NCBI RefSeq assembly: GCF_011682045.1
Contig: NZ_VVIW01000011.1
Span: forward strand, 1-64,000
Source: Massilia aquatica
Lineage (GTDB): Bacteria > Pseudomonadota > Gammaproteobacteria > Burkholderiales > Burkholderiaceae_D
DNA length: 64,000 bases
Direction: 5' to 3'
Positions 56,122 to 62,498 of the stretch are shown here, piece after piece. The stretch's first letter is position 1. The number at the start of each line of letters is the position of its first letter. The notes beneath the pieces were generated by a model that was not told the DNA's origin, did no database searches, and saw only the letters and a program-made list of their open reading frames with translations. Both the position numbers and the translations under genes were made by a program.

Positions 56122-57789
56122 ATGGCCAATTACGTCTATACCATGAATCGCGTGGGCAAAATCGTCCCGCCCAAGCGTCAGATCCTCAAGGATATTTCCC
56201 TGTCGTTCTTCCCGGGCGCCAAAATCGGCGTGCTGGGCCTGAACGGCTCCGGCAAGTCGACCTTGCTGAAAATCATGGCCGGGATCGATACCGACATCCA
56301 GGGCGACGCCGTGCCGATGCCGGGCCTGAACATCGGCTACCTGCCGCAGGAACCGCAGCTCGATCCCGAGCAGACGGTGCGCCAGGTGGTCGAATCGGGC
56401 CTGGGCGAAGTGTTCGAGGCGCAAGCCAAGCTGGAAGCGGTGTACGCGGCGTATGCCGACGAAGACGCCGACTTCGATGCGCTGGCGACCGAACAGGCGC
56501 GCCTGGAAGCGATCATTTCGACCTCCGACGGCGGCAACCTGAACCTGCAGCTGGAAATGGCCGCCGACGCGCTGCGCCTGCCGCCATGGGACGCTAAAAT
56601 CGGCATCCTGTCCGGTGGCGAAAAGCGCCGCGTGGCGCTGTGCCGCCTGCTGCTGTCGAAACCGGACATGCTGCTGCTCGACGAACCAACCAATCACCTG
56701 GACGCCGAATCGGTCGACTGGCTCGAACAATTCCTGCTGCGCTTCCCCGGCACCGTGGTGGCCATCACCCACGATCGCTACTTCCTCGACAACGCCGCCG
56801 AGTGGATTCTCGAACTCGACCGTGGTCACGGCATTCCATGGAAAGGCAACTACAGCTCGTGGCTGGAGCAAAAGAGCAACCGCCTCAAGCAGGAAGAAGC
56901 GACCGAGTCCTCGCGCCAGAAAACCATCGCCAAGGAACTGGAATGGGTGCGCCAGAATCCGAAGGGCCGCCAGGCCAAGAGCAAGGCCCGCCTGGCGCGC
57001 TTTAACGAGCTGTCCGAGCACGAATACCAGAAGCGCAACGAGACCTCCGAGATCTTCATTCCCGTGGCCGAGCGCCTGGGCAATGACGTGATCGAATTCA
57101 AGAACGTCTCGAAGTCCTTTGGCGAGCGCATGCTGATCGAGAATGTGTCGTTCGTGGTGCCGCCGGGCGCGATCGTCGGCATCATCGGCCCTAACGGCGC
57201 CGGTAAATCGACCCTGTTCAAGATGATCACCGGCAAAGAGCAGCCGGACAGCGGCGAAGTGGCGATCGGCCAGACCGCGCGCGTGTCCATCGTCGACCAG
57301 AACCGCGACGACCTGGCCAATACCAAGACCGTGTTCGACGACGTGGCCGGCGGCGCCGACACGCTCACCGTGGGCCGCTTCGACATGCCGTCGCGCGCCT
57401 ACCTGGGCCGCTTCAACTTCAAGGGTTCCGACCAGCAAAAGATCGTCGGCAACCTGTCCGGTGGTGAACGCGGCCGCCTGCACCTGGCCAAGACCCTGTT
57501 GCAAGGCGGCAACGTGCTGCTGCTCGATGAACCGTCCAACGATCTGGACGTGGAAACCCTGCGCGCGCTGGAAGATGCCTTGCTGGAATTTGCCGGCAGC
57601 GTCATGGTCATTTCCCACGATCGCTGGTTCCTGGACCGTATCGCGACCCACATCCTGGCCTTCGAAGGCAACTCGCAAGTGACCTTCTTCGACGGTAACT
57701 ACCAGGAATACGAAGCGGACAAGAAGAAACGCCTGGGTGAAGAAGGCGCCAAGCCGAAGCGTATCCGCTACAAGCCGCTCACGGTGTAA
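56122..57789 (+). CDS. ettA: Energy-dependent translational throttle protein EttA (ABC-F)
   Basis: 555 residues, equal to E. coli EttA. Two ABC domains: first Walker A GLNGSGKST and signature LSGGEKRR, second Walker A GPNGAGKST and LSGGERGR, each followed by a DEP(T/S)N Walker B. Between them is the PtIM linker (about 240-320, GRQAKSKARLARFNEL). No membrane part. ABC-F proteins bind the ribosomal E site and tune translation to the ATP/ADP ratio. Confidence 0.96.
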   Translation: MANYVYTMNRVGKIVPPKRQILKDISLSFFPGAKIGVLGLNGSGKSTLLKIMAGIDTDIQGDAVPMPGLNIGYLPQEPQLDPEQTVRQVVESGLGEVFEAQAKLEAVYAAYADEDADFDALATEQARLEAIISTSDGGNLNLQLEMAADALRLPPWDAKIGILSGGEKRRVALCRLLLSKPDMLLLDEPTNHLDAESVDWLEQFLLRFPGTVVAITHDRYFLDNAAEWILELDRGHGIPWKGNYSSWLEQKSNRLKQEEATESSRQKTIAKELEWVRQNPKGRQAKSKARLARFNELSEHEYQKRNETSEIFIPVAERLGNDVIEFKNVSKSFGERMLIENVSFVVPPGAIVGIIGPNGAGKSTLFKMITGKEQPDSGEVAIGQTARVSIVDQNRDDLANTKTVFDDVAGGADTLTVGRFDMPSRAYLGRFNFKGSDQQKIVGNLSGGERGRLHLAKTLLQGGNVLLLDEPSNDLDVETLRALEDALLEFAGSVMVISHDRWFLDRIATHILAFEGNSQVTFFDGNYQEYEADKKKRLGEEGAKPKRIRYKPLTV

Positions 57790-57874
57790 GCACCCGCAGC
57801 ACACCACCGCGTGCAAGCCCGGCGCGGTGGCGCTAACCGAGAGACCAGCCCCTTCTGCCCGGCACACTGGAAAG

Positions 57875-58375
57875 ATGAATGACTATCGCGCCAACCGGGT
57901 CGCCGGTCACAGTTACTTTTTCACGGTGCGCCTGTCCGGGCGCGGCGGCACCCTGCTGACCGATCACATTGCCGCCTTCGGCGAAGCCATCCGCCAGGCG
58001 CGCGGCCGCAAACCTTTCCACGTCGATGCCTGGGTCGCGCTGCCCGACCACGCCCATGCCATCTGGACCTTGCCGCCGGGCGACCACGATTGCGCCACGC
58101 GCTGGCGCGCCGTCAAGATCGCGTTTTCCAAGTCGCTGGGCAAGTCGGGCGCGGGTGCGGGCCTGGACACGATCTGGGAACCGCACTACCAGCAGCATGC
58201 GGTCGGGGCCGGGGCCGACGACTACGCCGTCCTGGTCGATTACATCCACCACAATCCCCTGCGCCACGGCCTGTGCGCCGCGCCGCACGAATGGCAATGG
58301 TCCTCGCTGCACCGTTTCATCGCGGCCGGGATGGTGGCGCAATCAACGCCGCCTGTAAAGTCAAAGCGGCCGTAA
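57875..58375 (+). CDS. REP-associated tyrosine transposase (TnpA-REP, RAYT)
   Basis: 166 residues. The Y1 HUH signature is present: DHAHAIW with the histidine pair at 59/61 (HAH) and the catalytic Tyr123 in DYIHHNPLRHGL. The single-domain size and the final EWQWSSLHRF motif fit RAYTs, which mobilise small REP palindromes rather than classical insertion sequences. GGAAAG precedes the ATG at 57875. A short nonamer ACACTGGAA occurs both upstream (57864) and downstream (58430). A GC-rich palindrome-like segment lies at 58385-58422, which may be a REP-like target. Confidence 0.85.
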   Translation: MNDYRANRVAGHSYFFTVRLSGRGGTLLTDHIAAFGEAIRQARGRKPFHVDAWVALPDHAHAIWTLPPGDHDCATRWRAVKIAFSKSLGKSGAGAGLDTIWEPHYQQHAVGAGADDYAVLVDYIHHNPLRHGLCAAPHEWQWSSLHRFIAAGMVAQSTPPVKSKRP

Positions 58376-59936: not shown

Positions 59937-60515
59937 ATGAAAAAACGCCACTTCCTGGGCGCTGCAATGAGTGCGGCGGCGCTGCCCGCCATCGCAGGTG
60001 CGGATGCCGGGCGCGCGCCCGGCCCCGCCCTGCTGACCCTGACCGGCGCGCTGGCGCGCAGCAACCGCGGCCCGTTCGACCCGGTGCGCGACCAGATGAT
60101 GCACAAGCAAAAGCTACGCTTCGAGAAAGCCTTCAGCATCGACTTCGGCGCCCTGCTGGCGCTGCCCGCAGTGAGCATCCGCCCGACCCTGGAATACGAC
60201 AGCCGGCCGCATACGCTGCGCGGGCCGCTGCTGCTCGATGTGGTGGCGCTCTCCGGCACGCGCCCGCGCGAGGACGGCAAACTGCTGCTGCGCGCGGTCG
60301 ATGGCTATGCGGTGGCGCTGCCGGTGGCGCAGGCGCGCGCGCAGCGCTTCATCGTCGCCACCCATCTGGACGGCAAACCGATGGCGCTGGGCGGACTGGG
60401 GCCGCTCTGGGCGGTGTACGACGCGGACCGGTTCGGGGACATGGCCGCCAGACCGGTGGCCGAACGCTTCGGCGCCTGCCCGTGGGCCCTGTATCACATC
60501 GAGGTGACAGGCTAG
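59937..60515 (+). CDS. Small exported protein with molybdopterin-oxidoreductase-like fold
   Basis: 192 residues from the ATG at 59937. The N terminus MKKRHFLGAAMSAAALPAIAGA resembles a Tat signal with KR in place of RR. The remainder shows the pattern of small SUOX-fold proteins (LRGPLLLDVVALSG, DGYAVALPVAQA, GLGPLWAVYDADRF, CPWALYHIEV). No cysteine stands at the place that ligates molybdenum in sulfite oxidase; the only Cys is near the end. It may bind cofactor weakly or not at all. Confidence 0.65.
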   Translation: MKKRHFLGAAMSAAALPAIAGADAGRAPGPALLTLTGALARSNRGPFDPVRDQMMHKQKLRFEKAFSIDFGALLALPAVSIRPTLEYDSRPHTLRGPLLLDVVALSGTRPREDGKLLLRAVDGYAVALPVAQARAQRFIVATHLDGKPMALGGLGPLWAVYDADRFGDMAARPVAERFGACPWALYHIEVTG

Positions 60516-60874
60516 GCGTAGGCTTCGGCCAGCGACATCACGCGCGGCGTGACGGTAATGCCGATGTTGCCGAACAAGGTATCGATGGCTTTCAGGTTTT
60601 CCTCGCACTCTTCGGTTTTCCAGCCTTTGAAGATGTCGGTGCCGTCCTTCTGGAAGTGCAGGTCGAGCACCTTGCCGCGGTCCTTGTGGGTATAGGCCTC
60701 GCTGTGGGTATTCTGGAAGCCCAGCTCGGCCAAGCCGGCCAGCAGGGAACTGGGCGGATTATCAGGGTCGGTGGCGAGGAATACGCCAAAAGTCTTGCCG
60801 GGCGGTTTAGCGGCAATGTCGACTTCATAAATGCCGGGCGCCTTTGTGACAGACGTACTTTTCAAAAATAGCAT
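60512..60874 (-). CDS. Hypothetical protein
   Basis: 120 residues from the ATG at 60874 (an ATG at 60907 adds 11). Cytoplasmic, mixed alpha/beta: GIYEVDIAAKPPGKTFGVFL, LAELGFQNTHSEAYTHKDRG, KVLDLHFQKDGTDIF, then WKTEECEENLKAIDTLFGN. I do not know its family. Its stop is four bases inside the convergent molybdopterin-like gene. The gap upstream contains the inverted-repeat cluster. Confidence 0.6.
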   Translation of the reverse strand: MLFLKSTSVTKAPGIYEVDIAAKPPGKTFGVFLATDPDNPPSSLLAGLAELGFQNTHSEAYTHKDRGKVLDLHFQKDGTDIFKGWKTEECEENLKAIDTLFGNIGITVTPRVMSLAEAYA

Positions 60875-61054
60875 GCTGGTCTCCCTGGTCGACGTAAGCA
60901 GCGGCATGGCGATCCCTGCCGTTTTGGCAAGTCTCCCGCAACATCACCGTAACGGTCTAGCTTATTGCGATTTTTTACGTTTGTCGATGCATGGTTGCAT
61001 CTTTTCGCATTAATGCATCAGCCGCGTTGCATAAGCGCGCCGATCGCGCTTTTA

Positions 61055-61155
61055 TTGCAAAACCGGCGGCCGGCGAACCGGGTACAGACCCCGGTTTTGC
61101 AAGTTTTACGGTGTTGCAAAACCGGGGTCTGTCCCCGGTTTTGCAAGTTTTACGG
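61055..61155. repeat. Alternating inverted-repeat cluster (four copies of a 12-bp unit)
   Basis: TTGCAAAACCGG occurs at 61055-61066 and 61114-61125, and its complement CCGGTTTTGCAA at 61091-61102 and 61135-61146, in alternating orientation. A 23-bp direct copy (CCCCGGTTTTGCAAGTTTTA plus CGG) is at 61089-61111 and 61133-61155. Two perfect, mutually exclusive hairpins result: 19 bp with an 11-base loop (61084-61102 with 61114-61132) and 14 bp with a 5-base loop (61114-61127 with 61133-61146). It follows the end of the minus-strand GNAT gene. Confidence 0.9.
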
Positions 61156-61656
61156 GGTGGCCGGCCGGATCCAGCCCATGAAAGCGTCGTCTTCGATGTC
61201 GCCGCGCGAATTCCTCACGCGCCCGCGCAGGCGGCCTTCTTCGACGAAGCCGAGCGAGGCGTACAGCGCGCGCGCCTTCACATTCGATTCGCGCGCGAAC
61301 AGCTCGACCCGCGTGATATGGGGCAGGTGCTCGCTCACCTCGGCCAGCAGGGCGCCGAACAGGGCGCGTCCCACGCCCTTGCCCTGGCATGCGGGCGCCA
61401 CGGCAATGGTGAGGTCGGTCAGCAAGTGCGACAGCGCGGCGATGCCGACACGCGAGGCGTGGATGTCGCCGCCGATCACGCCATCTTCTTCGTAGACGAA
61501 TTGGACGCCATCGGCCGCCGCTTTGCGCATGAAGGCGGTCACATAGTCGTCCGTGACTTCGTCCGGCGTGCGCGCAATGCCGTCCGGGACGCATGCCACC
61601 GCCTTGTACAGCGCCACCAGCTGCGCATGGTCCTTCGCTTCGGCTTTCCTGATCAT
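61150..61656 (-). CDS. GNAT N-acetyltransferase
   Basis: 168 residues from the ATG at 61656, which overlaps the DUF2520 stop by four bases (ATGA). GNAT features: LTIAVAPACQGKGVGRALFG (acetyl-CoA loop) and LYASLGFVEEGRLRGRVRNS (C-terminal strand). The substrate is not evident; the ending resembles RimI/RimJ-like or phosphinothricin-type enzymes. The frame runs far upstream inside the next gene, which is a shadow. Confidence 0.88.
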   Translation of the reverse strand: MIRKAEAKDHAQLVALYKAVACVPDGIARTPDEVTDDYVTAFMRKAAADGVQFVYEEDGVIGGDIHASRVGIAALSHLLTDLTIAVAPACQGKGVGRALFGALLAEVSEHLPHITRVELFARESNVKARALYASLGFVEEGRLRGRVRNSRGDIEDDAFMGWIRPATP

Positions 61657-62498
61657 GTTTTGTCCTTGCCATTGTGCTCCATCTTGCGCAGCGCAAGGTC
61701 GGCGGTCGCGGCCACCAGCGCCGCGTACAGCGCCCCGGTCGGCCCGTCCCACGCGGCCAGCGCCGCCTGCTGGCGCGCCACGGTATCCATGTCGCCGCGC
61801 GCAATCGGCCCGCTCAGCGCCGCCGCCGCGCCCAGGCGGAACACATTGGCCATGCTTTCCGACGCCAGCGGCTGCGCCAGCGCGCGCGCCACCGGCTCCG
61901 GCACGCCGGCCGCCTGGTAGGCGCGCAGGGCGGCGTCGAGCACCGTCACCAGGTAATTCGAGGCGAACACCGAGGCCGCGTGGTACACCGTTTTGGCCTG
62001 CGCGTCGATCGGCACCGGCTGCGCACCGATCGCTTCCAACGCGGGCGTGAGCACGGCCAGTGCCGCGCAATCGCCTTCGATCCCGCAAAACGTGCCGCCG
62101 AAGTGCCGCGCCACCTGCGCCGGATCGGCAAAGCTGCGGATCGGATGCACGCTCGCCGCCAGCGCCCCGGCCTGCGTGGCCGGCGCCAGTTCCGCCGCCG
62201 ATCTGGCGCCGCTGCAATGGAACACGATGGCGCCCTGTAAGGGCTGGCAGCGGGCCAGTTGCGCGCACACGGGGCCGATCTGGTCGTCGCCGACGGCCAG
62301 CATCCACACGTCGGCGCTGCGCATCCGGTCCATGGACGGCACTGCGCGCCCGGCCTTGACAAAGCCGACCGCGTCCTGCGCGCCCGCCTGCGAGCGGGTC
62401 AGCACGTCCTGCACCGCAAACGCGCCAGTGGCGGCGAACAGGCGGCCCAGCACGCGCCCCACATGGCCGGCGCCGATCAGGTTGAGCGTGCGCGCCAC
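61653..62498 (-). CDS. Rossmann-fold / DUF2520 protein (F420-like oxidoreductase family)
   Basis: 281 residues, GTG start directly after the DUF924 stop. N-terminal NAD(P)-binding motif LIGAGHVGRVLGRLF, then a second region with VFHCSGARSAAEL and HPIRSFADP, and the C-terminal DUF2520 helical domain (KTVYHAASVFASNYLVTVLD). These proteins resemble 6-phosphogluconate dehydrogenase-type dehydrogenases; their substrate is unknown. Part of a minus-strand operon. Confidence 0.87.
   Translation of the reverse strand: MARTLNLIGAGHVGRVLGRLFAATGAFAVQDVLTRSQAGAQDAVGFVKAGRAVPSMDRMRSADVWMLAVGDDQIGPVCAQLARCQPLQGAIVFHCSGARSAAELAPATQAGALAASVHPIRSFADPAQVARHFGGTFCGIEGDCAALAVLTPALEAIGAQPVPIDAQAKTVYHAASVFASNYLVTVLDAALRAYQAAGVPEPVARALAQPLASESMANVFRLGAAAALSGPIARGDMDTVARQQAALAAWDGPTGALYAALVAATADLALRKMEHNGKDKT

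Follow-up and report, generated by a model that had tools for sequence, protein, structure and literature searches.

A tail-to-tail pair of TIR elements behind a GNAT gene of Massilia aquatica and the TIRYT-like transposase locus from which it probably derives

An array of inverted repeats behind a GNAT acetyltransferase gene of Massilia aquatica is very probably a tail-to-tail pair of terminal-inverted-repeat (TIR) elements. The likely founder copies of their family bracket a TIRYT-type transposase gene elsewhere in this genome (C11:128386-129066), from where the elements would have moved. The array lies in the window, that is, the whole stretch of 64,000 nucleotides analysed here. The window copy is best read as a non-autonomous mobile element sitting behind a stop codon.

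TTGCAAAACCGG is present four times without mismatch and in alternating orientation, at 61055-61066 (+), 61091-61102 (-), 61114-61125 (+) and 61135-61146 (-). The preliminary description had claimed such a four-copy inverted repeat, which is confirmed, with two amendments: the order read on the + strand is +,-,+,- and not -,+,-,+, and the array covers 92 nt (61055-61146), slightly under the 100 bases given before. When up to one mismatch was allowed, four occurrences were observed compared with 0.39 expected, and four were reached in 0 of 100 shuffles. They make up the arms of two palindromes, one of them long (61055-61102) and the other short (61114-61146). The long form, TIR/REP-like element 1, runs head-to-tail on the + strand with an extra CGGCCGGCGAACC in its left arm and the core GGGTACAGACCCC, and it recurs in other clusters of the genome, for example L031, L043 and L050. 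The short palindromic form, TIR/REP-like element 2, has the core GGGGACAGACCCC on the - strand and stands tail-to-tail with element 1. The two tails are separated by an 11-nt spacer (61103-61113) that starts with GTTTTACGG; a second copy of GTTTTACGG at 61147-61155 forms a direct repeat with it and contains the GNAT stop codon (TAA, - strand, 61150-61152), such that GTTTTACGG stands after each unit of the array on the + strand. Flank and element together are nearly duplicated in a direct repeat (D1) with a 44-nt period and 86% identity. The suggestion that the array is a recombination trace was right in part, as the array consists of two elements plus a short duplicated flank.

The 19-bp and 14-bp perfect hairpins with a common arm reported previously were both found, the arm beginning at 61114. 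The short hairpin (61114-61127/61133-61146) has 14 perfect base pairs and a loop of 5 nt, and the long one (61076-61102/61114-61140) has 27 base pairs with one mismatch and an 11-nt loop, its inner 19 bp being perfect. The two are mutually exclusive because the two palindromes stand side by side. The array RNA (- strand, 126 nt) has a minimum free energy of -67.6 kcal/mol (z = -7.4), which was equalled in 0 of 200 shuffles; the predicted fold is the long hairpin, the joint fold being dominant. As single-stranded DNA, the single elements fold with about -17 to -18 kcal/mol each and the pair jointly with about -42.

The array had been placed between the end of a GNAT gene and an unknown gene, and both neighbours are borne out. 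The GNAT acetyltransferase gene (61150-61656, -; PF13508 and PF00583) abuts the array with its 3' end, its stop codon being 3 nt from the array end. Downstream of the array and in the same direction lies an open reading frame of 131 aa and unknown function (60512-60907, -), which has no Pfam match at E 0.001 and is conserved in M. mucilaginosa and M. atriviolacea. In these two species (L013 and L014, respectively) the array is missing after the GNAT gene and about 20 nt are found instead. Since TTTACGG is present in M. atriviolacea although the array is missing there, the GNAT stop codon was probably in place before the array. The stretches fetched from G002 and G009 (L162 and L184) gave no GNAT match and are therefore uninformative about the array; G002 carries GGGGTC-type repeats there. 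The region of about 120 nt upstream of the 131-aa reading frame (60908-61035, -) is invariant in 117 of 120 alignment columns across five genomes and is more conserved than most of the coding part; it gave no Rfam match near a gathering score and may be a regulatory leader.

In the 7.47-Mb genome, TTGCAAAACCGG occurs 77 times, compared with 0 times when read backwards as a control. A search for genome copies had been proposed in the preliminary description, and its reading of the site as an interspersed repeat array proved right. The copies, which we term type A, form 43 clusters on 37 stretches including the window; these were built from all TTGCAAAACCGG loci, and two cores without the 12-mer (C11:216998 and C22:547723) fall outside the count. 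They are dispersed as single units, dimers and groups, with a single unit or part of one in 29 of the 43 clusters by our own count from the cluster sequences; two of the clusters, L037 and L042, are lone 13-nt half-sites. According to a home-made codon-score gene finder, the calls of which are rough, the flanking genes are codirectional for 21 clusters, convergent for 17 and divergent for 3, while 2 clusters are unresolved and none is within a called gene. In the 39 clusters with an adjacent upstream stop codon, the distance to it is at most 9 nt in 20 and at most 19 nt in 24, with a median of 9 nt and a maximum of 714. The exact 21-mer TTGCAAAACCGGGGACAGACC was found in 2 of 392 genomes of the family, with 34 copies in M. 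aquatica (G000) and 2 in G009. It had no match in viral contigs, and the type-A 35-mer had none in plasmids. At L024 (2495-2545), a type-A palindrome is longer by eight flanking base pairs, GGCGATAT...ATATCGCC, and it looks as if flanking sequence had been copied back.

The type-A core is directional (ACAGA versus TCTGT). Among the 15 pairs of neighbouring cores within 250 nt, 12 are tail-to-tail, as is the window doublet, 3 are direct and none is head-to-head. For two other TIR types described below, the stretches fetched from related genomes contain 15 tail-to-tail, 3 head-to-head and 5 direct pairs (type B) and 12, 1 and 4 such pairs, respectively (type F), a tail-to-tail bias that is strong but not total. 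The gene at C11:128386-129066 has the same arrangement at its ends. It encodes a Y1_Tnp (Y1/HUH tyrosine) transposase of 227 aa (PF01797, 53.1 bits versus a cut-off of 23) with type-A copies on either side at C11:128340-128372 and C11:129156-129188. The ends are two 35-nt elements with GGGGACAG (L022 2500-2534 and 3316-3350), inverted and with their tails inward. All 12 inverted type-A neighbour pairs share this polarity, and a type-A dimer corresponds in polarity to the ends of the transposase gene minus the gene itself.

The transposase carries the motifs NHVHLL and YIELNP in alignment, and its matches in the PDB are weak ones to transposases (best E 0.0015). Its length of 227 aa compares with a median of 238 (PMC6006769), and no Pfam match to a helix-turn-helix (HTH), the C-terminal extension that goes with subclass 2.1 (see below), was listed up to E 10. 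GGGGACAG fits the motif GGGGWSAS. In strict form this motif is inverted on both sides at 20 of the 36 loci examined, which include 3 distant paralogues without it, and at 10 of 15 orthologues of the genus. In Di Nocera et al. 2013 (PMC3733652), TIRtrons are TIRYT transposases within inverted TIRs, many with GGGGWSAS, and some genomes contain TIR families. Quentin et al. 2018 (PMC6006769) assign 20 of 26 TIRYTs to subclass 2.1, which is characterised by the motifs NHVH and YIELNP and beside which they found no REP-like sequences. The closest known system is a TIRtron/TIRYT with its TIR family (PMC3733652), probably of subclass 2.1 (PMC6006769). The likeness lies in a RAYT-like Y1 transposase between inverted GGGGWSAS TIRs and in moderately repeated TIRs that occur singly, as dimers or in groups; TIRs that are self-complementary have been described as well. 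The differences are that a TIR type was traced here over 17 genomes of one genus, and that the cassette was apparently exchanged at a conserved locus. The word Massilia is absent from the main text of both papers.

Related systems resemble the array in part. REP and REPIN sequences with a RAYT (canonical GTAG or GTGG) are likewise palindromes of 20-40 nt at gene ends that occur as inverted doublets with a cognate Y1 transposase, but the hairpins here lack an unpaired GT[AG]G tag at their foot; type-A elements begin with (G)TTGC, which is paired with GCAA(C). BIMEs also contain several repeat units in alternating orientation within one intergenic gap, whereas the units here belong to a TIRYT and not to a GTAG RAYT. 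The C11 transposase was rejected as a RAYT of GTAG REPs (63.1 bits on NF047646, below the cut-off of 80) and as part of an IS200/IS605 insertion sequence (22.2 bits on NF033573 versus a cut-off of 55; several near-identical copies would be expected, and M. aquatica has one copy plus one 43% paralogue). Two other genes were dismissed as the source of the elements. The Y1-type gene in the window (57737-58375, +) is a RAYT by NF047646 (131.9 bits) but has no flanking element copies; it has HAH in the HUH motif, and no GGGGWSAS repeats were seen beside it. The second TIRYT-like gene, at C19:20467-21141 (L052), is 43% identical to the C11 gene and has no adjacent type-A copies. Matches of 35-44% occur in 17 of 17 genomes searched, and the three paralogue copies of this kind that were examined had no GGGGWSAS repeats alongside. 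An origin from a plasmid or virus was likewise rejected, the 35-mer being without plasmid matches and the 21-mer without matches in viral contigs; the 24 plasmid records with a related transposase are all below 60% identity, the 8 listed reaching at most 49.8%.

To relate TIR type to transposase, exact matches to five patterns were counted in 17 genomes of the genus, G000 included. Type A (ACCGGGGACAGACCCC) has 48 copies in G000, 6 in G006, 1 in G009 and 0 in 14 genomes. Type B (ACCGGGGTCAGAGCTYTRA) has 40 in G000, 5 in G002, 101 in G003, 35 in G005, 104 in G007, 58 in G009, 75 in G016 and 0 in 10. Type C/D (TCGGGGWCAGACCACC) has 69 in G001, 47 in G004, 73 in G010, 1 in G013 and 0 in 13; type E (TCGGGGTCAGACCTCAAT) has 56 in G013, 33 in G014, 41 in G015, 1 in G005 and 0 in 13; and type F (ACCGGGGTCTGACCTCTGATT) has 85 in G002, 54 in G005, 54 in G009, 6 in G016, 3 in G000, 1 in G003 and 0 in 11. 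The transposase is flanked by one of the five patterns in 13 genomes, and each of the 13 contains 33 or more copies of that type, counting those beside the transposase itself; these genomes have the exact pattern on at least one side of the transposase and the exact pattern or a variant on the other. The expectations for types E and F were set before counting, and types A to D had been seen first. G013 was outside the genomes predicted for type E and its flanks were noticed afterwards; its TIRYT gene (C1:3484252-3484826) is broken and retains type-E TIRs. No pattern exceeds 6 copies in G006, G008, G011 and G012. There are three exceptions to the match between type and transposase: the 40 type-B copies in G000; the 35 in G005, where one type-B copy is still found outside the type-F copies of the transposase; and, not predicted, the 54 type-F copies in G009, which has no type-F transposase.

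Six relatives (G002, G003, G005, G007, G009 and G016) have the transposase at the same locus as G000; as far as the contigs extend, it is flanked there by an oxygenase gene and, on the opposite side, an amidohydrolase gene. The flanking DNA of G000 is 87-93% identical to theirs up to the TIRs. The TIRs themselves differ in type from those of G000, and the transposase DNA is about 68-71% identical in five relatives and gave no blastn match in G016. At the protein level, G000 shares 58-60% identity with the six, which share 75-89% among themselves. Synonymous differences per site between G000 and the relatives are 0.74-0.86 for the transposase (six relatives), near saturation, compared with 0.24-0.31 for the oxygenase (four relatives) and 0.15-0.24 for the amidohydrolase (six relatives). 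On one side of the G000 cassette, the new sequence is preceded by AACCGGG, which the type-B TIR of G016 also contains. It seems from these comparisons that the G000 transposase and its TIRs were replaced as a unit. Speaking against an exchange, the G000 transposase has, apart from the gene itself, no match above 60% identity in 392 genomes of the family; the swap was thus likely one between old lineages.

These results can be accommodated if the TIRtron locus is an exchange site, where one species may take over from another a whole cassette of a transposase and its matching TIRs, the shared GGGGWSAS core perhaps serving as the place of recombination; each swap would change the repeat family that colonises the gene ends and leave the previous one as relics, and the window doublet would stem from the latest swap. 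We put this forward tentatively, as a possibility that falls somewhat short of probable. In the exchange reading, the type-B copies of G000 are such relics. The alternative that the G000 cassette was not swapped and instead evolved unusually fast in place draws on a tree in which a clade of all seven transposases is not rejected (AU test, p = 0.278) and on synonymous differences that are high among the six relatives too, at 0.39-0.56 within the four with type B, 0.41 within the type-F pair and 0.64-0.76 between these sets. A change in selection on the protein alone would leave synonymous differences unraised, and the near-saturated values of the transposase next to the low ones of its neighbours therefore argue against fast protein evolution in place, which we consider unlikely. 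As the transposase is more divergent than its neighbours among the six as well, either such exchanges take place repeatedly or the cassette as a whole evolves faster. A related phenomenon was named the orthoswitch by Nunvar et al. 2013 (PMC3686654), the only source in the literature searched in which we met the term: the REP class changes at syntenic RAYTs, which is ascribed there to mutation of the flanking REPs by a molecular mechanism that, the authors state, can only be guessed at. Both cases have syntenic transposase genes, different flanking repeat classes and an old class left in the genome; here, in contrast, the transposase changed along with its TIRs, and the genes on either side changed little.

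The gene ends occupied by type A in M. aquatica were compared with those of relatives. Of the 43 type-A sites, 24 were searched with joined flanks in three relatives, and 23 were usable in at least one; L029 was dropped for repeat-only matches, as were the rows of L019 and L021 outside the 24. At 8 of the 23 sites (L017, L018, L024, L032, L040, L046, L050 and L051), one relative or more has the loose arm pattern TTGCAAAACCGGGG (at most 2 mismatches in 14). The exact 14-mer is found at three of the 23 only, L018 and L046 (G009) and L040 (G002), and the exact 21-mer at L046 (G009) only; L034, outside the 24, is also shared with G009. Another GGGGTC-type element occupies 9 of the 23 sites in at least one relative (L017, L018, L024, L026, L028, L031, L049, L050 and L051), and the remaining sites have a short spacer of unrelated sequence, a different palindromic repeat or a longer stretch of DNA. 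In relatives, most of the compared sites are thus empty or are taken up by a degenerate related element or a different repeat, which agrees with the interspersed repeat reading, and their contents indicate that different families reuse the same gene ends repeatedly. The other palindromic repeat (CGTCGTCCCCGCGCAGGCGGGG and relatives) occupies such gene ends at L142, L166, L174, L196 and others. G009 has two type-A family sites in common with G000, yet its transposase bears another TIR type; together with the looser arm relatives at 8 of 23 sites, this suggests that some copies or their forerunners predate the present cassette. What speaks for movement is presence and absence between species, and an empty site may have arisen by deletion. 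Apart from the element itself, sites with and without it differ by about 20 nt, so that no exact target or footprint was found. Beside the element, three relatives carry extra DNA, about 2.5 kb at L040 (2501-2537) and 0.9-1.1 kb at L046 (2488-2511); at both sites the repeat may mark the end of a deletion in G000.

The stability of the predicted folds and the common direction of the GNAT gene and the 131-aa reading frame would be in keeping with an RNA switch or attenuator, in which the two exclusive hairpins decide whether transcription stops or runs on into the 131-aa gene. Such a switch-like terminator, raised in the preliminary description, is not supported. No intrinsic terminator (GC stem plus T run) was found in 60400-61800, where 1.5 were expected from shuffles; the 8 Rfam matches in 60500-61700 are all below threshold (e.g., SAM-II at 19.4 versus a gathering score of 44); about two thirds of the clusters, with one unit or part of one, lack a second hairpin; and two relatives that keep both genes lack the array. 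A switch is therefore very improbable. A more general role, in which the elements are retained for stopping transcription from both sides or for protecting mRNA 3' ends and their dispersal is secondary, has more in its favor while still being on the unlikely side. About half of the clusters with an adjacent stop codon (20 of 39) are no more than 9 nt away from it, a GC stem is followed by TTTT on both strands, and only 3 of 41 resolved clusters are between divergent genes, one of these being the right end of the transposase. Among all 120 intergenic gaps of 20 bp or more in these stretches, cluster sites included, 24 are divergent. However, selection against harmful insertions would equally leave elements at gene ends, the T run after the stem is only four long, and the terminator scan was empty. 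An effect of the array on RNA 3' ends is possible.

We propose instead that the transposase recognizes the TIR element (GTTGCAAAACCGGGGACAGACCCCGGTTTTGCAAC) as a single-strand hairpin and would move or copy it. Single TIRs and pairs would spread in this way, a pair being a TIRtron minus its gene and in that respect REPIN-like, and the elements would persist just after stop codons, where they presumably do the least harm. As a weaker suggestion, the RNA hairpin might then block 3' exonucleases or slow readthrough from the GNAT gene into the 131-aa gene. Copies could also have spread by recombination or replication slippage between palindromes without a transposase, as the 44-nt near-duplication in the window, the mosaic clusters and the direct pairs would suggest. 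Consistent with that, 7 of 40 type-A loci in G000 (a list made separately from the TTGCAAAACCGG matches and different from the 43 clusters) lie within 400 bp of a type-B copy, compared with about 0.1 expected for uniform placement and about 0.8 if 12% of the genome is assumed to be open to insertion. Recombination or slippage fails, however, to explain why the TIR type flanking each genome's own transposase is the one that multiplied, or why pairs have their polarity, and we regard it as quite improbable.

The array in the window is a further example of a known bacterial repeat kind, and TIRtrons themselves are thinly described in the literature searched. The data from this genus bear on how bacterial repeat classes change over time. 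Its orthologous transposases carry at least six TIR types, and the five patterns have each multiplied in the genomes that carry them, which makes the change of a repeat class testable. The natural pairs of transposase and TIR tell which protein should cut which hairpin.
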